Assembly (NCBI GenBank): GCA_031286205.1
Contig: JAITUR010000052.1
Span: 1 to 46,638 of the forward strand
DNA length: 46,638 nt
Origin: Treponema sp.
GTDB lineage: Bacteria > Spirochaetota > Spirochaetia > Treponematales > Breznakiellaceae
Direction: 5' to 3'
Notes under the pieces: generated by a model
Seen by the model: the letters and a program-made list of their open reading frames with translations, nothing else
The model's database searches: none
Told to the model about the DNA's origin: nothing
Part shown: positions 16,265 to 43,940 of the stretch, piece by piece
Layout: the number at the start of each line of letters is the position of its first letter
How positions within the stretch are numbered: the stretch's first letter is position 1
Program-made: the position numbers and the translations under genes

Positions 16265-16293
16265 TTGACATAACCAAAACAATGTGATATAAT
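16265..16293 (+). promoter_or_regulatory. Perfect sigma-70 promoter into the 16.3-kb leader region
   Basis: TTGACA (16265-16270), a 17-base spacer and TATAAT (16288-16293). Predicted start near 16300. It reads into the heptanucleotide repeat and structured leader ahead of the DUF1566 lipoprotein gene, so it may be that gene's promoter with a leader of nearly 280 bases, or the promoter of a small RNA. Confidence 0.8.
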
Positions 16294-16302
16294 ATACTAG
16301 TA

Positions 16303-16389
<87 letters not shown>

Positions 16390-16578
16390 TCTACATACTA
16401 GAAGAGATTTTTCACTATTTACCTCAAAAACCCAATTTTCTCAGGAGAAATGCCGCTTGTAATTACTTACAGGCAGCTTTTATATATGCAAATCAAATAA
16501 CAAAGGCGACTTTGTCTCCGCGTTGCGGAGCCATTCTATTATATTCGCCGCTAGAAGCGGCATAGGAAGGAGTTAATT
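16390..16578 (+). promoter_or_regulatory. Structured leader of the DUF1566 lipoprotein gene
   Basis: No gene longer than 16 codons fits here. The region holds two perfect hairpins: CTCCGC-GTT-GCGGAG (16516-16530) and GCCGC-TAGAA-GCGGC (16547-16561), the second just 5 bases before the AAGGAG ribosome site (16567-16572). A weaker TGTAA/TTACA pair lies near 16458-16472. The placement suggests control of translation or of mRNA stability; no known riboswitch class is recognised. Confidence 0.45.
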
Positions 16579-17442
16579 ATGAAAACAGTAAAAAGACTGT
16601 TAGGAATTGCCGTAATTGTTACGGTAATTGGATTGGTAGTTACAGCTTGCGATGAGTCGCACACTTGCGAGTTCACCGGCTGGGAAATTTCAACCACAGC
16701 AAATTGTAAAGACATTGCAATCCAAACAGGAACTTGCAGTTGCGGAGAAACAACAACCCGCAATGAACCCGATGGAACCATAGACGCAAGCAATCACGAC
16801 CACAGTATTGTAGCAGGTTCAGGCAGTTTAATTTGCAGAAGAACAAACTGCGAACATCAGTACGCAATCGGCGACATAGGTCCCGCAGGCGGGATAATTT
16901 TCTATGTTGCAGATGGACAAAACGGCAGACAAACAAGCATTACAGTACAGGCATCGCCAGACGGAACACCGGCAGACAGGGCTTGGACTGAATACACCGC
17001 CTACTACCTTGAAGCCGCTAAAACAAATGAAGGCGTTCTCTTTTGGGATCCTTCTCCTTCTGGAACACTAATTAACGGCGTAACAACCCTTACAACTGGT
17101 TTGGAAACGGAAGCCTCTCTTTTAGGGAATGGAAGGAAAGACACACAACTTATTGTAAATCATCTTGTGACGACAGATGATGTAGCTGCCAAATTATGCG
17201 CAAATAGAACAAGTGGCGGCACAGATTGGTTTCTACCAAGTTTAGGAGAATTAAATCAACTCTATCTTAACAAAGAGGCTGTTAGTGCAGCCGGTGGCAG
17301 TTTTACAAGTTGGTTTTACTGGTCTTCGTCGCAGTACGATGCGAGATTTGCGTTGAAACAGAGATTCGACAATGGCAAACAGTACTATGAATTTAAGAAT
17401 GACATAGCCTACCACTTTGTTCATGCCGTGCGAGCCTTTTAG
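16579..17442 (+). CDS. DUF1566-type lipoprotein, candidate DGR target protein
   Basis: 287 residues. Lipobox VVTAC gives lipidated C24. Residues 25-95 are Cys-rich and low in hydrophobics, and then a DUF1566/Lcl-like C-type-lectin-fold domain follows: IGDIGPAGGIIFYV, YLEAA, DWFLPSLGELNQLYLNK, FYWSSSQYD and the closing VRAF. In the last 40 residues most variable positions are encoded by codons ending in C or T and give Y, D, F, H, A or N, as expected when AAC/AAT codons of a template are changed at adenines. This is the signature of a diversity-generating-retroelement variable region. Hairpins follow at once. A strong AAGGAG sits 6 bases before the ATG. A surface binding role is inferred. Confidence 0.8.
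   Translation: MKTVKRLLGIAVIVTVIGLVVTACDESHTCEFTGWEISTTANCKDIAIQTGTCSCGETTTRNEPDGTIDASNHDHSIVAGSGSLICRRTNCEHQYAIGDIGPAGGIIFYVADGQNGRQTSITVQASPDGTPADRAWTEYTAYYLEAAKTNEGVLFWDPSPSGTLINGVTTLTTGLETEASLLGNGRKDTQLIVNHLVTTDDVAAKLCANRTSGGTDWFLPSLGELNQLYLNKEAVSAAGGSFTSWFYWSSSQYDARFALKQRFDNGKQYYEFKNDIAYHFVHAVRAF
17317..17439 (+). other. Candidate DGR variable region
   Basis: The end of the lipoprotein gene from the WSSS motif to the final codon. Aromatic and acidic residues encoded by TAC, TAT, TTT, GAT, GAC and CAC alternate with invariant family residues (A, Q, G, VRAF). All these codons are reachable from AAC or AAT by changing adenines only. No template repeat or reverse transcriptase is in the window, so this call rests on codon pattern and position. 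Confidence 0.45.
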
Positions 17443-24424: not shown

Positions 24425-25401
24425 TTTACCCTGTATGCTGCCGCGCGGTTTTCGTTGTCTATTAATCTTTGAAGCCTAAGAATTTCTTCCCTGGCTCTTT
24501 GATCTCCCGTCTCGTTTAAAACATTTTGCATTAAAAGTAAAGCTTCGTTTAGTTGTCTTTGTACCGTCATTACAAGAGCTGCGTTAAAGGCCGCCGCATA
24601 ACTTCCGGTATCACGGTAAATATCAAGGAAAGCATTTTGGGCGGCATTGTAATTTCCGGCTTTAACAAGGGACGCGGCTTCTTTAGATCTTTGTTTTACA
24701 GCTTTATCTTTTGAATTTTCGTTCATAAGACTGCGTCTTTCTGTAACTGTGTAAGGAACCATATCTCTTGTCAAATCTTTCATGTTTTTTTCTATTATTT
24801 CCTGCACCATAACTTCCGGCGATTTTAAATAATTGTTAATTCTATTTTCTGTTTGATTCTGCGTCCTTCTGCCTCTGGGCTGACGGATATTTTCCTGGTT
24901 ATCGGCTTCATCTTCCGCAAGCTCGTAATAATCTGTTAATAAATCTTCTATTGTTCTTGTTCCAATAACGATGCCATTGCTGTCTGAAAGGGTGTAAATA
25001 AATGCTATTTGAACTGTTCGTTCAAATATAACATAATTAGCTTCTGTTTCGTCTTTTTGATCTACTCTTGTTTCGTTTTGTATATTGTCATTAACAACAA
25101 CATAATATACCTTGCCGGTAAAAAAGGCATCGAAAGAACCCCTGTTTTCGTTTGTTTGCACTTGAACCTGGGCAAAATGATTCGCTCCCCTTATTTGGCT
25201 GTAAGATATCGAATTTAAAAGCATACTTGCGTGTCTTTGCAGCGGAGTATTTTCCGATTCTTCGAAAGGAATTACCGCAATGCTTCTAATACTTGCAGTA
25301 TTCCATTCCGGCAGCCTTGTTGTCTGATAAGATACAGAAGTTGCGCAGCTTGTAATAAATATCAAAATTGCAAGGATTAATATAAAACCTGTTTTTCTCA
25401 T
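24421..25401 (-). CDS. Lipoprotein with C-terminal TPR-like helices
   Basis: 326 residues from ATG 25401. The open frame extends further, but only this start gives a proper signal peptide with the lipobox FITSC (lipidated C19). Residues 35-200 form an alpha/beta domain (RSIAVIPFEESENTPLQ, FTGKVYYVVV, RTVQIAFIYTLSDSNG) like lipoproteins that resemble CsgG or the curli/LPP type, but not clearly assigned. Residues 250-320 are helical and TPR-like (EAASLVKAGNYNAAQNAFLDI, YAAAFNAALVMTVQRQLNEA). No Shine-Dalgarno precedes the start. It diverges from the methyltransferase gene over only 22 bases. Confidence 0.75.
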   Translation of the reverse strand: MRKTGFILILAILIFITSCATSVSYQTTRLPEWNTASIRSIAVIPFEESENTPLQRHASMLLNSISYSQIRGANHFAQVQVQTNENRGSFDAFFTGKVYYVVVNDNIQNETRVDQKDETEANYVIFERTVQIAFIYTLSDSNGIVIGTRTIEDLLTDYYELAEDEADNQENIRQPRGRRTQNQTENRINNYLKSPEVMVQEIIEKNMKDLTRDMVPYTVTERRSLMNENSKDKAVKQRSKEAASLVKAGNYNAAQNAFLDIYRDTGSYAAAFNAALVMTVQRQLNEALLLMQNVLNETGDQRAREEILRLQRLIDNENRAAAYRVN

Positions 25402-25441
25402 GCGCCTATGATATAATATTCCCATGAAAAACACAAGGCAA
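25402..25441. promoter_or_regulatory. Compact divergent promoter with overlapping -10 boxes
   Basis: Only 22 bases separate the two start codons (25401 minus, 25424 plus). The plus-strand TATAAT (25412-25417) ends 6 bases before its ATG. On the minus strand TTGCCT (25441-25436), a 17-base spacer and TATTAT (25418-25413) lie 11 bases before its ATG. The -10 boxes overlap, so only one polymerase can bind at a time, and neither gene has room for a ribosome site. Confidence 0.6.
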
Positions 25442-26656
25442 GAAGCCTGCAATACCGCCGTTGCTCTTTGTGCTGTAGGCGCGGAAAAAGTTGTTTCCAA
25501 CGAATTAAAAAAACTGGGCGATATTCAAATCGAAGAATCCTCCTATGGCAAGGTACGCTTTAAGACCGGCACAACGGGGTTATACAGGGCGTTGATTGGT
25601 CTTCGCGCCGCCGACAGGGTTCTGCTGGAAATAGCGAACTTTAAGGCTGTCGATTTTGACGCTCTTTTCGAGAAAACCGCTGCGGCGCAGTGGGAAACAC
25701 TTGTGCCAAAAGGCATGGGGCTTGTTGTTTCTAAAGTGCGGACAAACCGCTCCGTATTAAAAGCGGAGACCAGTATTCAAGCGATTGTCCACAAAGCGGC
25801 AGCGCAGCGTCTTTGCGCTCGATATAAAATGGACAGACTGCCCGAGCAAAAACCCATTGCAAAGGGCTCGGAAGAAAGCGCAATAAAAATTGCGGAAGTT
25901 CGTGTTTATATAGAAAAAGATACTGCTTCCCTGCTTGTAGACCTTAGCGGAGAACCCATGTTCAAACGAGGTTACCGCAGCGAAGGCGGAGCTGCTCCTC
26001 TTAGGGAAACAACCGCGGCGGCATTATTATTTCTTTCCGGCTGGAAGCGCAAATTCCCGTTGTACGATCCTTTTTGTGGTTCCGGTACTTTCCCAATAGA
26101 AGCGCTGATGTATGCGTGGGACATGGCTCCCGGTTTGGGAAGGCGCTTTGCCATTGACGATCTCCTTATCGCCGACGAAAAAATCGACAAAACAGTAAGA
26201 GAGGAGTTTCGCTCCAAAATTGATTATGACAGACTTATTAGAATTGCAGGCAGCGATGAAGAATCGCGCTCTGTCTCCATTGCGCTGTCCAATACGGCGC
26301 GGCTTTGCGATATAGCAGAAGGCCGTTTACCGCAAAGAGGAATCCGTCCTTCTGGCGGAATAACCGCAAGTATCAATCTAAAAACACTTCCCATGAAGGA
26401 AGCATCCGCCCCTGTCGCGGACACCGGTTTATTAATCACAAACCCGCCCTACGGCAAAAGATTGGGAGACCCGGCGTTGGCGGAACAGGTATACAAAGAT
26501 ATGGCGGGTCTTGCAAAGCGTTTCCCCGGCTGGAAACTTGCCGTAATAACAGATCACAGCGGTTTTGAAAGTTTTTACGGCAAAAAAGCGGATAGCTGCC
26601 GCGAAATAAGCAATGGGAACACACCTTCCTTTTTTTATCAATATGATATAATATAG
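25424..26656 (+). CDS. THUMP-domain RNA (23S rRNA guanine-N2) methyltransferase, RlmL/YpsC-like
   Basis: 410 residues. The N-terminal part has the CAVGAEKVVSNELKKLG motif and a THUMP RNA-binding domain (about 60-155). The class I SAM methyltransferase domain follows, with PLYDPFCGSGTFPIEA near residue 215-230 and the target-amine motif TNPPYGKRLGD near 340. This is the N-terminal half of E. coli RlmL, which methylates G2445 of 23S rRNA, and equals the single-domain YpsC/Trm11-type enzymes. It starts at an ATG without a Shine-Dalgarno and probably as a leaderless transcript. It is followed 3 bases later by a TetR regulator. Confidence 0.88.
   Translation: MKNTRQEACNTAVALCAVGAEKVVSNELKKLGDIQIEESSYGKVRFKTGTTGLYRALIGLRAADRVLLEIANFKAVDFDALFEKTAAAQWETLVPKGMGLVVSKVRTNRSVLKAETSIQAIVHKAAAQRLCARYKMDRLPEQKPIAKGSEESAIKIAEVRVYIEKDTASLLVDLSGEPMFKRGYRSEGGAAPLRETTAAALLFLSGWKRKFPLYDPFCGSGTFPIEALMYAWDMAPGLGRRFAIDDLLIADEKIDKTVREEFRSKIDYDRLIRIAGSDEESRSVSIALSNTARLCDIAEGRLPQRGIRPSGGITASINLKTLPMKEASAPVADTGLLITNPPYGKRLGDPALAEQVYKDMAGLAKRFPGWKLAVITDHSGFESFYGKKADSCREISNGNTPSFFYQYDII
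26647..26652 (+). promoter_or_regulatory. Possible -10 box for a leaderless TetR gene
   Basis: TATAAT 7 bases before the TetR ATG at 26660, overlapping the last codons of the methyltransferase gene. No good -35 box is visible, and the short gap to the upstream stop also allows read-through coupling. Confidence 0.3.
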
Positions 26657-26659
26657 GGT

Positions 26660-27253
26660 ATGGCGATTACTGTAGAACACAACGAAAGACGAAAATCCAT
26701 TTTGGAAAAAGCTCTTACCGTTTTTATAGACGACGGGTTCGAGGGCACTACTTTCCAAAAAATTGCCGATCGTTGTGGAATTACCCGGACAATACTTTAT
26801 CTTTATTTTAAGAATAAGCGCGAAATTTTTATTTTCAGCATTAAACAACTGTTATTAAGCGTAGAAGAAAATATAAACACAATTCGGGCAAGCAAATCTT
26901 TAAACAGTGCGGACAAAATTACCAAAGTTCTTTATACCATTTTTAAACTATTGGAACAAAACCAACAAATGCTTTCCGTTATTCTGGATTATCTTTTGCA
27001 TGTATTAAAAAGCGATGTTAATCCGGAAACACGGGTTAGGCGCAGAACCGTAAGGCTTAGGCATATGTTATCGTCTATGTTAATAGAGGGCATAAAAGCC
27101 GGCGAGTTTAAAAAAGTTAATGTAAAAACAACCAACGATTATCTTTACAGTTTTATAGAAGCTGCAATTTTTCAGCTGGTTATTTTAAAGCGAAAAGATT
27201 TTACCGAGTTAAAAGAAGCGGCAGCTTTTGCTGTCCGGCAGTTGTCGGTATAA
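26660..27253 (+). CDS. TetR/AcrR-family transcriptional regulator
   Basis: 197 residues. The N-terminal helix-turn-helix is clear (residues about 12-57: FEGTTFQKIADRCGITRTIL, then YLYFKNKREIF), and the rest is an all-helical ligand-binding domain without recognisable ligand residues. It starts 3 bases after the methyltransferase stop and ends one base from the convergent trkH stop. It does not sit beside an efflux pump, so its target is unclear; self-control and control of neighbouring genes are the usual first guesses. No palindromic operator is evident upstream. Confidence 0.9.
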   Translation: MAITVEHNERRKSILEKALTVFIDDGFEGTTFQKIADRCGITRTILYLYFKNKREIFIFSIKQLLLSVEENINTIRASKSLNSADKITKVLYTIFKLLEQNQQMLSVILDYLLHVLKSDVNPETRVRRRTVRLRHMLSSMLIEGIKAGEFKKVNVKTTNDYLYSFIEAAIFQLVILKRKDFTELKEAAAFAVRQLSV

Positions 27254-28712: not shown

Positions 28713-30101
28713 TTATTTACTGTTTTTTTGAGCCGCAAAAAACTTTTCCAGCTCTACCTCGCCGCCGCTCTTTGCCATAATTATAATTTTATCTTTGGCA
28801 GAAAAAACATAATCTCCCTGCGGAATAAACGATATTTCTCCGCGATTTACAAGCATAACAAGACCGCCCAAAGAAAGTTTAAAATCCGTAACAGGTTTAT
28901 TTATTGCAGGAGATCCGTCTTCTATTTCTACTTCTACAATTTCGAAGCTTCCATCTCCAAGACTTTGCATACCTCTTATATTTGTACCTGCAAGATGGGA
29001 AAGTATGGAATCGACTACAACGGTTTTTACCGGTATGGCTACATCTACTCCAAGCTGGAGAGCGATTGTTTTGTATCCCGGGGTGGAAACCGTGGCTATA
29101 GCGCGTCTTACTCCATGCGATTTTAAATAAACGGCAGTAACAATGTTAAGCTCCTGGTTTGGAGTAGCCGTAATTATTAAATCAAGATCGCCAAGTCTTT
29201 CTTCTGCTACGAAATCTTCATCTGTTATATCTTCGTTTAAGACAATAGCTTTTGGAAAACGGGTTGCAAGCTCTTTGCAAATATTGTAATCTTGTTCGAT
29301 TATTAACAGTTGATGCCCAAGAGAGCTTAATCCTTTTATAGATTTTTTAAATTTATTATGGGCATCCAAAAGGGCTTCCGCAATAAGCGAGCCTAATTGT
29401 CCGCCGCCAACTATACCTATTCGTTTAAGAACGGTTTCCGTTGTTCTGCCTGCAAGATTAAAAACATGGGACATATTTTCTCTTCTTGCCATAATATAAA
29501 TTAAATCGCCTGCGCAAAGTTCTGTAGAACCTGCGGGAAGAAAGCAATCCTTGCCGCGTTCAATTAAGGCAATAAGTCCCTCGTCGCGGATAAAGGAATG
29601 AAAATCTATAAGAGAAAAACCGTCAAAATGACTTCCTTCTTTAATGTGGACAGAAGCAAGTTCATACGATGTTCCCGGAAAGGTAACTATATTCCCTGAT
29701 GCGCCATGAGACAAAGATGCAAGTACGGCTCTTGCGGCTTCTATATCGGGGTGAATAAAAGAATCTATCCCTATAATTTTCTTATAACCGGTATTTCTTA
29801 CACGCGCAATTTTTAACAGCTTTTTTGTTTTTTGCATAGAAGAACCCATGCTGCAAATAATCATGTTAACTTCGTCAGATTCTGATACGCAGATAAGAGC
29901 ATCGGCTGCAGGAACTCCCGCTTCTTCCAGGGCGGAAATATTGCTTCCAATATCATTAATAACAAGACAGTCCAAGCGGTTAGAAGCATGACGGGCTGTT
30001 TCTTCATTGGATTCGATCAGGGAAATTTCATGTCCTTCCTGTATCAGGTGGCTTGCAAGCTGAGTTCCCGTAAAACCTGCGCCAACAATAACTATTTTCA
30101 T
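28713..30101 (-). CDS. trkA: TrkA, cytoplasmic NAD-binding gating subunit of K+ uptake
   Basis: 462 residues with two RCK units, each a Rossmann nucleotide-binding domain plus an RCK-C domain. First glycine motif MKIVIVGAGFTGTQLASHL with the acidic ribose-binding residue in SLIESNEE; second motif RIGIVGGGQLGSLIAEAL with LLIIEQD. The start at 30101 has no Shine-Dalgarno. A minus-strand TATAAT (30113-30108) ends 6 bases before it but overlaps the stop codon of the upstream kinase, so it may be read-through or leaderless. TrkA gates TrkH in response to NAD(H) or other nucleotides. Confidence 0.94.
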   Translation of the reverse strand: MKIVIVGAGFTGTQLASHLIQEGHEISLIESNEETARHASNRLDCLVINDIGSNISALEEAGVPAADALICVSESDEVNMIICSMGSSMQKTKKLLKIARVRNTGYKKIIGIDSFIHPDIEAARAVLASLSHGASGNIVTFPGTSYELASVHIKEGSHFDGFSLIDFHSFIRDEGLIALIERGKDCFLPAGSTELCAGDLIYIMARRENMSHVFNLAGRTTETVLKRIGIVGGGQLGSLIAEALLDAHNKFKKSIKGLSSLGHQLLIIEQDYNICKELATRFPKAIVLNEDITDEDFVAEERLGDLDLIITATPNQELNIVTAVYLKSHGVRRAIATVSTPGYKTIALQLGVDVAIPVKTVVVDSILSHLAGTNIRGMQSLGDGSFEIVEVEIEDGSPAINKPVTDFKLSLGGLVMLVNRGEISFIPQGDYVFSAKDKIIIMAKSGGEVELEKFFAAQKNSK

Positions 30102-39438: not shown

Positions 39439-39998
39439 TATTGCATTATCCTGACATCCCAGATTGTAATGTCGTACGGCCCGGGTCTCCAGCTTTCGTG
39501 GGTCTGCCATGAAATGTCAAAAACATTGTTCATAAGTCTTTCGTTCAAAGCACCGACGGGGGTTCCCCAGGACGGCTGTGTGAACATATTAATAGGAACT
39601 TCTATGGTAAGCTCTTTACCGGCTTCAGCTTCAAAGCGGTATTCATGGTGTGCCCAATCTGTAATAGTACTGACACGGTATTTAACGGAGTAAAGCTGTC
39701 CGTCTCCGGTAACCTTAAAGGAAATTCCCTTTGCTTTTTTAAGCGCTTCCAGCGTGTCTTCGTCCGGATTAATTTGCCAGCCGGTAAAACCGTACTGGAA
39801 CGCTTCCGTAACTTCTCCGTATAATCGATAAGCAGTCATACCGCCTTTTTCGATTATTTCCATTTCGATGGTAGAGTCGCCATTGTCGTTAGCATCTGTA
39901 AAAGGCTCCCATTCGCCGGTTACCGGGATACTTGCACTTTTACCGCAGCCGAACATAAATAATGCCCCAATAAGCATTACCACTAATAATTTTTTCAT
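39438..39998 (-). CDS. CIA30/CBM11-like lipoprotein
   Basis: 186 residues from ATG 39998, with AAGGAG upstream. Signal peptide ending in the lipobox FMFGC (lipidated about C18). The mature part is a beta-sandwich of the CIA30/CBM11 type (GMTAYRLYGEVTEAFQYGFTGW, KGISFKVTGDGQLYSVKYRV, ISWQTHESWRPGPYDITIWDV), a fold used in carbohydrate binding. The xylanase genes diverge 256 bases away, so a polysaccharide-related role is possible. It is the first gene of the unit containing luxS, glyS, proA and proB, and the luxS start depends on it. Confidence 0.78.
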   Translation of the reverse strand: MKKLLVVMLIGALFMFGCGKSASIPVTGEWEPFTDANDNGDSTIEMEIIEKGGMTAYRLYGEVTEAFQYGFTGWQINPDEDTLEALKKAKGISFKVTGDGQLYSVKYRVSTITDWAHHEYRFEAEAGKELTIEVPINMFTQPSWGTPVGALNERLMNNVFDISWQTHESWRPGPYDITIWDVRIMQ

Positions 39999-40027
39999 AT
40001 CAAACTCCTTGTGTTTTCTTGTTTGAT

Positions 40028-40056
40028 ATTGTATCACAATGGGATTTAATCAACAA
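40028..40056 (-). promoter_or_regulatory. Promoter of the lipoprotein/luxS/glyS/pro unit
   Basis: Minus-strand TTGTTG (40056-40051), a 17-base spacer and TACAAT (40033-40028). The lipoprotein ATG is at 39998, with a normal leader and AAGGAG. Confidence 0.6.
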
Positions 40057-40216
40057 CCCCTAAGCACGAATGAAAAAGCCCCCAAATGGGTAAATTTGTC
40101 TGTTTCGTGAATACACCGCCTTCTTGTTAAAAATGCGCAATCTTCTTCCTTTACTTTTATATTGTTTGTCCAAACTTTGTGGAAGGAACTTTATCTTTCC
40201 CTGATTTTTTTTTGGA

Positions 40217-40246
40217 TTGACAGCGCAGCAGATGCCATGTTATAAT
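40217..40246 (+). promoter_or_regulatory. Consensus promoter of the xylanase pair, leaderless layout
   Basis: Perfect TTGACA (40217-40222), an 18-base spacer and perfect TATAAT (40241-40246). The ATG lies 7 bases further on at 40254, so transcription should start at or next to the ATG. No Shine-Dalgarno is present. The remainder of 40057-40216 shows nothing recognisable. Confidence 0.8.
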
Positions 40247-40253
40247 TACTGTT

Positions 40254-41726
40254 ATGAAAACAACAACCAAATTATTATCCTATCTTATGTTGATTGTTGC
40301 GGTAATTTTTTTATTTTCAACATGCGCTTCAAAAAACGGCTCTGCGGAAACTGCCAAAACAGGAATCAATATCGAAAAGCGGTCGCTCATCCTTACTATC
40401 GGAGCAAGCGAAAAACTCAATTTTACATTATCGCCGGAAGCGGAAGGGCAGGCTGTTACTTGGACATCCAGCGCCCCAAGAATTGCAAGCGTTTCCAATG
40501 ATGGTACTGTAACTGCGCTGGATTATTCTGTACGCGGAGAATCAAGGTTTACTTCATCTCCTGCTACCGGAACTGCAAATATTACGGCAAAAACTGCGGA
40601 CGGAAAATTCGAAGACACCATAATAGTAACTACCACAACTCAAGGCACTATAGATATACTTACCCTGCCGCCAATGAAAGATCAATTTAGCTCTTATTTT
40701 TTAATTGGCAATATTTTTAACAGGACAGATGCCAGAAACAACGAAATTGTAAATCAACGCCTTATTCATCATTTTAATGTACTAACTGCAGAAAACGATA
40801 TGAAGCCCGAATATATTGCGCCAAGCAGAAACTCCTACAATTTTGCAAATGCAGACCGTATGGTTAACTCTGCTATTGCATCGGGCTTTAAGGTGCATGG
40901 GCACACTCTTCTTTGGCATAGACAAAATGCCCAGTGGATGACATCAATGACTAGATCAAGCAAAGAAAACGCTCTTGCCGCTATGAAAAAATACATTACA
41001 GATGTAATGACACATTATAAGGGAAGAATTTATTCATGGGATGTGTTAAACGAAGCATTTCCGGACAGCGTAACCGAAAACGACGATTGGACACAAGTGA
41101 TACGCAAGGCGGGGGATTCTCAGTCGCCTAATCCGTGGTATGTTTCCATTGGTGCAGATTTTGTTTACGAAGGATTCCTTGCAGCCCGGCTTGCAGATCC
41201 GGAAGCATTGTTGTATTACAACGATTACAATCTGGACACTATCGGCAAAGCTACAATGGTTCGCAACATGGTCCGCGATGTAAATGCCCGCTACAGGCAG
41301 GAGTATCCCAACGAAAGACGGCTTTTAATTGATGGTATAGGAATGCAATCGCATCATAATCTTCATGTGTCGGAAGCCCATGTTAGAAGATCTTTAGATA
41401 TGTTCCGCCCGCTGGGAGTTAAAATTGCTATTTCCGAGCTTGATGTTCTTGGTCAGGGCTGGGGCGACTTTAGCAGATCCGGCGGTTCAGGCACCAATAA
41501 ACAATCAGGTTCTTCTGTTACAAATGACGGAATAAAAGATCAGGCATGGTTTTACAACGAACTTATGACTCTGTTTATAGAAAACGCCGACATTGTCGAA
41601 CGCGTTACATGGTGGGGCGTTACCGACAGCCAAAGCTGGCGTTCCGCCGGACTTCCATTACTTTTTGATTCTCGGGGCCGTGCAAAGCCCGCGTACTACA
41701 GAGTAATAGAGGCGTTAAGCCAATGA
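40254..41726 (+). CDS. Lipoprotein endo-1,4-beta-xylanase, GH10, with Big_2 domain (first copy)
   Basis: 490 residues. Signal peptide with the lipobox LFSTC, so membrane-anchored on the envelope. Residues about 40-125 are a bacterial Ig-like Big_2 domain (LTIGASEKLNFTLSP, VTWTSSAPRIASVSNDGTVTAL). The GH10 barrel follows, cleaving internal beta-1,4-xylosidic bonds by the retaining mechanism: acid/base E267 in WDVLNEAF and nucleophile E395 in ISELDV; HGHTLLWH and YNDYN are also typical. The stop overlaps the start of the next gene (ATGA). Together they make a xylan-degrading pair, most similar to each other. Confidence 0.95.
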   Translation: MKTTTKLLSYLMLIVAVIFLFSTCASKNGSAETAKTGINIEKRSLILTIGASEKLNFTLSPEAEGQAVTWTSSAPRIASVSNDGTVTALDYSVRGESRFTSSPATGTANITAKTADGKFEDTIIVTTTTQGTIDILTLPPMKDQFSSYFLIGNIFNRTDARNNEIVNQRLIHHFNVLTAENDMKPEYIAPSRNSYNFANADRMVNSAIASGFKVHGHTLLWHRQNAQWMTSMTRSSKENALAAMKKYITDVMTHYKGRIYSWDVLNEAFPDSVTENDDWTQVIRKAGDSQSPNPWYVSIGADFVYEGFLAARLADPEALLYYNDYNLDTIGKATMVRNMVRDVNARYRQEYPNERRLLIDGIGMQSHHNLHVSEAHVRRSLDMFRPLGVKIAISELDVLGQGWGDFSRSGGSGTNKQSGSSVTNDGIKDQAWFYNELMTLFIENADIVERVTWWGVTDSQSWRSAGLPLLFDSRGRAKPAYYRVIEALSQ

Positions 41727-43159
41727 TTAAAAAAATTCTCTTTTTTTCGGTTATCGCGGTTTTTATGTTTAGCGGATTTTTGTCCTGTAATCAGAATCGA
41801 GCTCCACGAAAGGGAGTTATACTGGAAAAAAGAGAACTTGTTCTAACAATTGGCGCAAGCGAAAAACTTGAATATATTTTAACGCCGGAAGCAGAAGGTC
41901 AAACTCTTGTATGGGTATCCAGCGATCCAAATATTGTAAGAGTTTCTGAAGATGGAGTTGTAACTGCTGTAAACTTTTCCACAGGAGGTTCTATGGCGTA
42001 TGCTTCTATTTTTGGCACAGGTCAGGCAAATGTAACAGTTAGTACGGAAAACGGAAAGTTTAAGGATACAATAAAAATTGCCGCTACAACACAGGGGCAG
42101 GTTAATATATTATCATTGCCGCCAATAAAAGATCAATTTAGTTCTTATTTTATAATGGGTAATATTTATAATCCTGCAGATGCAAGCCCTGCAGAAATTG
42201 TTACGGAACATCTTATTTATCATTACAGTATGTTGACACCGGAAAATAACATGAAGCCAAGCTATCTTGCGCCGGATCCGAATTCTTATAATTTTCAGAC
42301 GGCAGACCGCATGGTAAATGCCGCGCTTGCATCGGGCTTAAAAGTGCATGGGCACACTCTTCTTTGGCATAGCCAGAACTCCGCCTGGATAAAAAGAGTC
42401 CCTGACAGATATAACAAAGATCAAGCGTTAGTTGTAATGAAAAAATACATTACAGATGTCGTTACGCATTTTAAGGGAAGAATATATTCGTGGGATGTAT
42501 TAAACGAAGTTTTCCCGGACGGTGTAAGCTCCAGAGGAGATTGGCGGCAGGTAATGCGCAAGGAGAATCCGTGGTATGCAGCTATAGGGGCAGATTTTGT
42601 TTACGAAGGTTTTCTTGCCGCCCGCCTTGCAGACCCAAATGTAATTTTATACTACAACGATTACAATACCGACCAGGCTCCCAAAGCCGCAATGATACGC
42701 GACATGGTGCGTGATGTAAACGAACGCTACCGCCGCGAATATCCCAACGCAAACCGTCTTTTAATAGAAGGAATAGGAATGCAGGAACATCACAACACCG
42801 GTGTAACCGCATCCAGCATTAGAGCGACAATTAATTTATTCAGGCCATTGGGAGTAAAAATCTCCGTTGCCGAGCTTGATGTTCTTGGCCAAAGCTGGAG
42901 TACATTCAGAGATATTGGTGCCGGAATAGATAAACACGGAACTTCTACTGTTACAAACGAAGGACTTATGGATCAAGCCCGCCTGTACGGCGAATACATG
43001 AAGCTGTACATGGAAAATGCAGACATAATCGAGCGCGTATCCTTATGGGGAGTTACCGACGACAAAAGCTGGCGTTCCGGCGGACTCCCGCTACTCTTTG
43101 ATTCACAAGGCCGTGCAAAACCCGCGTATTACAGTTTTGTTGGAGCTTTGGATAATTAA
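41723..43159 (+). CDS. Lipoprotein endo-1,4-beta-xylanase, GH10, with Big_2 domain (second copy)
   Basis: 478 residues, same plan as the gene before it. Lipobox GFLSC, Big_2 domain (LTIGASEKLEYILTPEAEG, LVWVSSDPNIVRVSEDG), GH10 barrel with acid/base E262 (WDVLNEVF) and nucleophile E384 (VAELDV). It shares long identical stretches with the first copy, notably HGHTLLWH and the C-terminal LPLLFDS and GRAKPAYY, so the two arose by tandem duplication. They overlap by 4 bases. The differences lie in loops near the active site (for example RQNAQWM against SQNSAWI), so substrate preference may differ. Confidence 0.95.
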   Translation: MIKKILFFSVIAVFMFSGFLSCNQNRAPRKGVILEKRELVLTIGASEKLEYILTPEAEGQTLVWVSSDPNIVRVSEDGVVTAVNFSTGGSMAYASIFGTGQANVTVSTENGKFKDTIKIAATTQGQVNILSLPPIKDQFSSYFIMGNIYNPADASPAEIVTEHLIYHYSMLTPENNMKPSYLAPDPNSYNFQTADRMVNAALASGLKVHGHTLLWHSQNSAWIKRVPDRYNKDQALVVMKKYITDVVTHFKGRIYSWDVLNEVFPDGVSSRGDWRQVMRKENPWYAAIGADFVYEGFLAARLADPNVILYYNDYNTDQAPKAAMIRDMVRDVNERYRREYPNANRLLIEGIGMQEHHNTGVTASSIRATINLFRPLGVKISVAELDVLGQSWSTFRDIGAGIDKHGTSTVTNEGLMDQARLYGEYMKLYMENADIIERVSLWGVTDDKSWRSGGLPLLFDSQGRAKPAYYSFVGALDN

Positions 43160-43171
43160 TTTTTATTATTG

Positions 43172-43201
43172 TTGACAATAGGTTATTATTCTACTTATAA
43201 T
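43172..43201 (+). promoter_or_regulatory. Consensus promoter of the nucleotidyltransferase/HEPN pair, leaderless layout
   Basis: Perfect TTGACA (43172-43177), an 18-base spacer and perfect TATAAT (43196-43201), then 6 bases and the ATG at 43208. No Shine-Dalgarno. Confidence 0.8.
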
Positions 43202-43207
43202 TAAAAT

Positions 43208-43528
43208 ATGGATAATTTAGCGGAAAGAATAGAGATAATAAAGGATTCAATCCTTAAAAATGTAGCAGCTAAATATATATATTTATTTGGCTCTTATGTA
43301 TATGGTATTCCGACAGAAAAAAGTGATGTTGATATTTATTTAGTTGTTCCTGATGATGCAGGCAATACATTAGAAATTTACTCAAAAATAATGGTTGATT
43401 TAAGTCTTAAAAAAATATTTTTTGTGGATTTATTATTAAATAGAGAAAGCGTTTTCAATAAAAGGAAAACAGAAAATATTTTAGAAGAAACAATTTACCA
43501 AAAGGGAAAATTAATTTATGAAAATTAA
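43208..43528 (+). CDS. MNT-type minimal nucleotidyltransferase (antitoxin-like)
   Basis: 106 residues. Minimal nucleotidyltransferase of the Pol-beta superfamily with GSY (G28-S29) and the catalytic pair D40 and D42 in SDVDIYLVV. Such proteins pair with HEPN proteins; some modify and silence the HEPN partner by AMP addition. The next gene is a HEPN protein overlapping by 11 bases, so this is the antitoxin half of a candidate two-gene module. The gene is markedly AT-richer than the xylanases, which suggests recent transfer. It has its own strong promoter. Confidence 0.9.
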   Translation: MDNLAERIEIIKDSILKNVAAKYIYLFGSYVYGIPTEKSDVDIYLVVPDDAGNTLEIYSKIMVDLSLKKIFFVDLLLNRESVFNKRKTENILEETIYQKGKLIYEN

Positions 43529-43940
43529 TGATGTATTAGAATGGATACAAATCGCTGAAGATGATATTTATTCCGCTAAATATTTATACGAAGCTGTTCG
43601 TAAACCTTTTGAGATAATTTGTTATCATTGTGCTCAAGCAGTAGAAAAATATTTGAAAGGATATTTAACATATAGTGGAATAATACCACAAAAAACACAT
43701 AATCTGCTTCTTTTGCTTGAACTGTGTATTGAAAAAGACAATAGTTTTGAAAATATAAGAACAGAATGTGGTTTATTAAATAAATTTACAAATGAAATAC
43801 GCTATCCATATAGAATTGAGATAAAAGAAGAAGATGTAATTTATTCAATTAATGCAGTAGACAGGATTAGAAATATTGAATCTATAAAAAAATTAATTGA
43901 AATATTTAAAAATAGAGAAAGGGAAAATAATAGAAAATAA
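43518..43940 (+). CDS. HEPN-domain protein (toxin-like partner)
   Basis: 140 residues of the HEPN (PF05168-like) family, four-helix-bundle proteins, several of which are RNases. Marks are AEDDIYSAKYLYE, ICYHCAQAVEKYLKGYL, QKTHNLLLLLELC and EIRYPYRIEI. The Arg-x-His nuclease motif of the strict HepT type is not evident in its usual form (RYP without His near it), so RNase activity is not certain. Translation is coupled to the gene before it by the 11-base overlap. AT-rich like its partner. Possible roles are abortive defence or nucleic-acid modification. Confidence 0.85.
   Translation: MKINDVLEWIQIAEDDIYSAKYLYEAVRKPFEIICYHCAQAVEKYLKGYLTYSGIIPQKTHNLLLLLELCIEKDNSFENIRTECGLLNKFTNEIRYPYRIEIKEEDVIYSINAVDRIRNIESIKKLIEIFKNRERENNRK

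Follow-up and report, generated by a model that had tools for sequence, protein, structure and literature searches.

The stretch of DNA analysed here (hereafter the window) comprises an entire contig of 46,638 nucleotides from a Treponema genome bin (2.34 Mb, 126 contigs, 94% complete), which we take to come from a termite-gut organism. By its homologues, the organism groups with Treponema genomes that were obtained through metagenomic binning. The window contains the tandem GH10 pair described in the original prediction, two open reading frames encoding Big_2 and GH10 domains whose ends overlap as ATGA (Table 1). The GH10 domain of the first protein scores 281.7 bits against a curated cut-off of 22.1, and xylanase activity is predicted from this domain. 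Judging by the overlap, the second gene is probably translationally coupled to the first. Directly after the GH10 genes, at 43172-43940, lies an MNT/HEPN nucleotidyltransferase pair (toxin-antitoxin-like); it has a consensus promoter of its own at the ATG (gap of 6 nt), so its first gene is also predicted to be leaderless.

Table 1. Coordinates of the promoter elements, genes and related features in the window.
Feature	Position	Strand	Detail
-35 hexamer TTGACA	40217..40222	+	6/6 match
TG of extended -10 (TGT-TATAAT)	40238..40239	+	sequence; promoter scan
-10 hexamer TATAAT	40241..40246	+	6/6 match; spacer from -35 of 18 nt
Gap TACTGTT between -10 and ATG	40247..40253	+	7 nt; no Shine-Dalgarno
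Predicted transcription start, A of AUG	40254	+	promoter geometry, Y(-1)R(+1) preference, class statistics
First GH10 gene	40254..41726	+	lipoprotein-type signal MKTTTKLLSYLMLIVAVIFLFSTCA; Big_2 and GH10 domains (Pfam GH10 9.5e-84; Big_2 3e-9)
Second GH10 gene	41723..43159	+	Big_2 and GH10 domains; 61% identical to first; start overlaps stop of first as ATGA
Second consensus promoter, TTGACA-18-TATAAT-6-ATG	43172..43210	+	adjoins start of nucleotidyltransferase gene of MNT/HEPN pair
Divergent intergenic region	25402..25423	.	22 bp; -10 boxes on opposite strands, 6 nt from the respective ATGs (25424 +, 25401 -)

A promoter scan of positions 39950-43700 returned only two sites that match both hexamers at 12 of 12 bases, the one abutting the first GH10 gene and the one at 43172. 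The GH10 site thus has the full sigma-70 pattern (TTGACA, 16-18 nt, TATAAT), with a spacer of 18 nt. The perfect TTGACA-18-TATAAT seven bases before the ATG at 40254 had been pointed out in the original prediction; to this the scan adds the TG that extends the -10 element. As also noted there, a search of the 20 nt upstream of this ATG found no Shine-Dalgarno (SD) sequence. Leaderless genes typically have a -10 box ~6-8 nt before the start codon, which is AUG, and the GH10 gene has both the spacing (7 nt) and the codon. Since the -10 hexamer ends at 40246, a transcript beginning 7 or 8 bases further on would start at T40253 or A40254. The latter, the eighth base past the hexamer, is the likely start, being a purine that follows a pyrimidine (T at -1). 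However, the gap of 7 lies on the shoulder of the gap distribution, off the class peak of 6, and T40253 is therefore also a possible start. Folding of the first 60 nt of the predicted transcript is unremarkable (z -0.26).

The next in-frame ATG, at 40287, could in principle be the true start, in which case an mRNA from near 40254 would have a short leader. Starting there would shorten the lipoprotein signal peptide by its charged n-region and would gain no SD; ATG 40254 yields a proper lipoprotein-type signal peptide N-terminus, and the signal peptides of homologues are similar in length from the equivalent start. We regard initiation at the later codon as highly improbable. Another reading is that the main transcript comes from an upstream promoter within 40040-40216, with a leader and an SD-less ATG (used, for example, through ribosomal protein S1 or an unstructured leader), and that the consensus site is secondary. 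The AT-rich 5' intergenic region of ~250 bp leaves room for such a promoter, but within the scanned region no other promoter-like site lies on the + strand before the ATG, while the abutting one matches 12/12 and is extended. The missing SD also argues against a leadered message, as does a weak terminator-like hairpin at 40181-40200, which would separate the gene from any start further upstream. An upstream origin for the main transcript is thus unlikely, while an extra upstream promoter could give an additional leadered GH10 transcript.

The promoter-ATG arrangement at the GH10 gene is not due to chance. The window has three instances of TTGACA-N15-19-TATAAT-N5-9-ATG, and 100 dinucleotide shuffles gave none. 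For TATAAT-N5-8-ATG, the spacing whose comparison with shuffled sequence had been proposed in the original prediction, the window holds 14 instances against a shuffle mean of 4.0 and a maximum of 10. Across the whole genome the consensus promoter-ATG pattern is found 11 times against once in a mirrored control, whereas TATAAT near ATG alone is much less specific (324 versus 216 mirrored).

Class statistics were drawn from a 556-kb sample of the genome, taken as stretches, together with whole-genome pattern counts. When TATAAT-gap-ATG opens a coding frame, 15 cases fall at a gap of 6 nt and on average 1.5 at any other gap, an approximately 10-fold excess, and all 15 start codons at this gap are ATG, with no GTG and no TTG. 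The -35 boxes upstream of starts at gaps 6-8 are better than those at other TATAAT sites (p=2e-4). These starts are also preceded by a pyrimidine at -1 in 19 of 22 cases compared with 88 of 147 SD starts (p=0.017), an excess to be expected if transcription begins at the A of the ATG. Of 367 called genes, 19 (~5%) are preceded by a perfect TATAAT at gap 6-8, with control gap windows averaging 3.4, and the percentage is approximate because genes were called by a simple codon-usage script and not by a full gene finder. Two of the 19 were also counted as SD genes, and a further 157 of the 367 were SD-only. A 16S search of the genome bin found no rRNA, so SD use was taken from an AGGAG peak 4-7 nt before starts rather than read directly from the anti-SD. 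Together these counts indicate that a small leaderless class (~5% of genes by perfect TATAAT) coexists with AGGAG-led genes in this Treponema.

The same spacing recurs in the family. Of the consensus promoters that are followed by an ATG at up to 30 nt in three family genomes, 24 have a gap of 6, nine a gap of 7 and eight a gap of 8, while each gap from 10 to 30 has 3.2 on average. Nine family genomes that are at least 90% complete hold 61 consensus promoter-ATG sites, where the mirrored control yields 1. Elsewhere in the phylum, several families also include genomes rich in such sites. Genomes of family f25 (e.g. G121, 39 sites versus 1 in the control) contain numerous TTGACAAATAAAATTATTCTGTTATAAT-ATG sites that are almost identical to one another and might represent a repeated promoter element or a regulon.

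The original prediction had described the GH10 site as one of several like it in the window. This held for 6586, 25424, 30101 and 43208, all good candidates, but 26660 is doubtful and no credible gene begins at 16303. No site is clearly conserved in relatives for the TrkA-like gene at 30101. At 26660 (a TetR gene) the TATAAT lies within the conserved end of an upstream methyltransferase coding sequence (26640-26662), which makes the site weak as a leaderless start; its conservation was dropped as evidence of leader loss, the conserved stretch being the end of that coding sequence. The consensus promoter within 16265-16400 precedes an ATG whose reading frame is very short, as well as tandem TTCTCCG repeats; its role may rather be to transcribe the gene at 16579 with a long leader (~280 nt).

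Within 25399-25426, TATAAT-6-ATG on the + strand opens a gene for an RlmL-like methyltransferase and TATCAT-6-ATG on the - strand opens a gene for a lipoprotein (MRKTGFILILAILIFITSCA); because the two -10 boxes overlap and each lies 6 nt before its ATG, both divergent genes look leaderless. The + strand box is conserved in the genus. In 16 of 20 congeners the homologue of the RlmL-like gene has TANNNT at a distance of exactly 6 nt from its start, and in two more at 5 nt, the box being TATAAT in eight, TATACT in six and another sequence in four, with the extended TG in 14 of 18. None of the 20 has an SD before this start. Against a background of 3.75% per gap, the conservation of the gap has a naive binomial probability of 6e-20, a figure that ignores shared ancestry. 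The start at 25424 is the strongest evidence obtained here that leaderless starts are under selection in the genus.

These observations bear on whether the GH10 spacing could be coincidental, the promoter being real but its very short leader reaching the ATG by accident, in a genome that has no dedicated leaderless class. TATAAT near ATG is indeed fairly common in AT-rich DNA, as the mirrored count above illustrates, but such a reading would leave the sharp gap-6 peak, seen both at coding starts and at consensus promoters, without a cause, and likewise the exclusive use of ATG at that gap and the arrangement at 25424 across 20 genomes. We consider coincidence very unlikely.

Our preferred reading, to which we assign a probability of about 0.83, is that a sigma-70 (RpoD-type) promoter 7 nt from the GH10 start gives rise to a leaderless mRNA and that the gene belongs to a minority class. 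RNA polymerase would most likely start at A40254, or at most 1-3 nt upstream, so that the mRNA would begin with AUG and have no 5' UTR. A 70S ribosome with initiator tRNA would then start at the 5'-terminal AUG without an SD, and the second GH10 gene would be translated through the ATGA coupling. That bacterial leaderless mRNAs can be initiated by 70S ribosomes at a 5'-terminal AUG has been described (PMC9031893). The expectation of an mRNA starting at or next to the ATG, put forward in the original prediction, is strengthened as a prediction by the gap-6 peak, the restriction to ATG, the -35 enrichment, the Y(-1)A(+1) preference and the conserved start at 25424. Its description of the arrangement as unusual is correct in that most genes lie outside the class; however, the class is a regular minority here and has been reported for Spirochaetes (PMC3160421, PMC5243855).

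Zheng et al. (2011) found leaderless genes in 6 of 18 Spirochaetes genomes, amounting to 1.8-6.9% (mean 3.9%) of genes (PMC3160421), in line with the ~5% in this genome. Their 'TA-like signal' genes resemble the GH10 site in having a -10-type signal directly before the start and no SD. That study, which appeared before the termite-gut bins used here, names no Treponema in its main text. Differential RNA-seq of Leptospira interrogans revealed ~440 mRNAs with a 5' UTR below 10 nt, half of them below 2 nt, and at 37 C leaderless transcripts were over-represented in carbohydrate transport and metabolism, among other categories (PMC5243855). Leptospira is also a spirochaete but of a distant lineage, and its starts were mapped experimentally whereas ours are predicted from sequence. 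The '-10 region adjacent to ORF' of Deinococcus-Thermus, in which TANNNT ~6-7 bp before the ORF replaces the ribosome binding site, has the same geometry; it serves nearly one-third of genes in D. radiodurans, compared with ~5% in this Treponema, and its usual motif is TACACT rather than the TATAAT, often with an extended TG, found here (PMC12340547). A limited literature search found no relevant study of leaderless genes in Treponema, including 5'-end mapping. The GH10 start is therefore of an already known type; what is particular is its lineage-specific appearance at a xylanase gene, together with the conserved companion at 25424.

That lineage specificity emerges from the GH10 homologues in relatives (roughly 46-62% identity). 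All 12 examined are SD-led, and so, within this sample, the leaderless GH10 start is specific to the present lineage. None of the 12 has a TATAAT directly against its start codon, nor do further homologues that were checked; several of the 12 have TATAAT boxes ~20-60 nt upstream. Unlike the RlmL-like gene, whose homologues share the -10/ATG geometry, the GH10 gene does not have its arrangement kept in homologues, and conservation thus gives no support to the GH10 site itself. One homologue (L004) has CATGTTATAAT in common with the GH10 site, but with a 32-nt gap containing AAGGA; this would fit leader loss, although an 11-base match at such divergence proves nothing.

In summary, the case for a class of leaderless genes in gut Treponema gains further evidence from sequence, and the conserved start at 25424 supplies a phylogenetic footprint. 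Gene finders that depend on SD motifs may put leaderless starts in the wrong place. Tentatively, termite-gut Treponema might keep a core of ancient leaderless genes (e.g. the RlmL-like gene) while others are gained or lost, and in this lineage the GH10 pair might have exchanged an SD-led start for a leaderless one, so that xylanase output would possibly depend on whatever conditions favour leaderless translation. The GH10 case suggests that a lignocellulose enzyme can change its mode of initiation between relatives.
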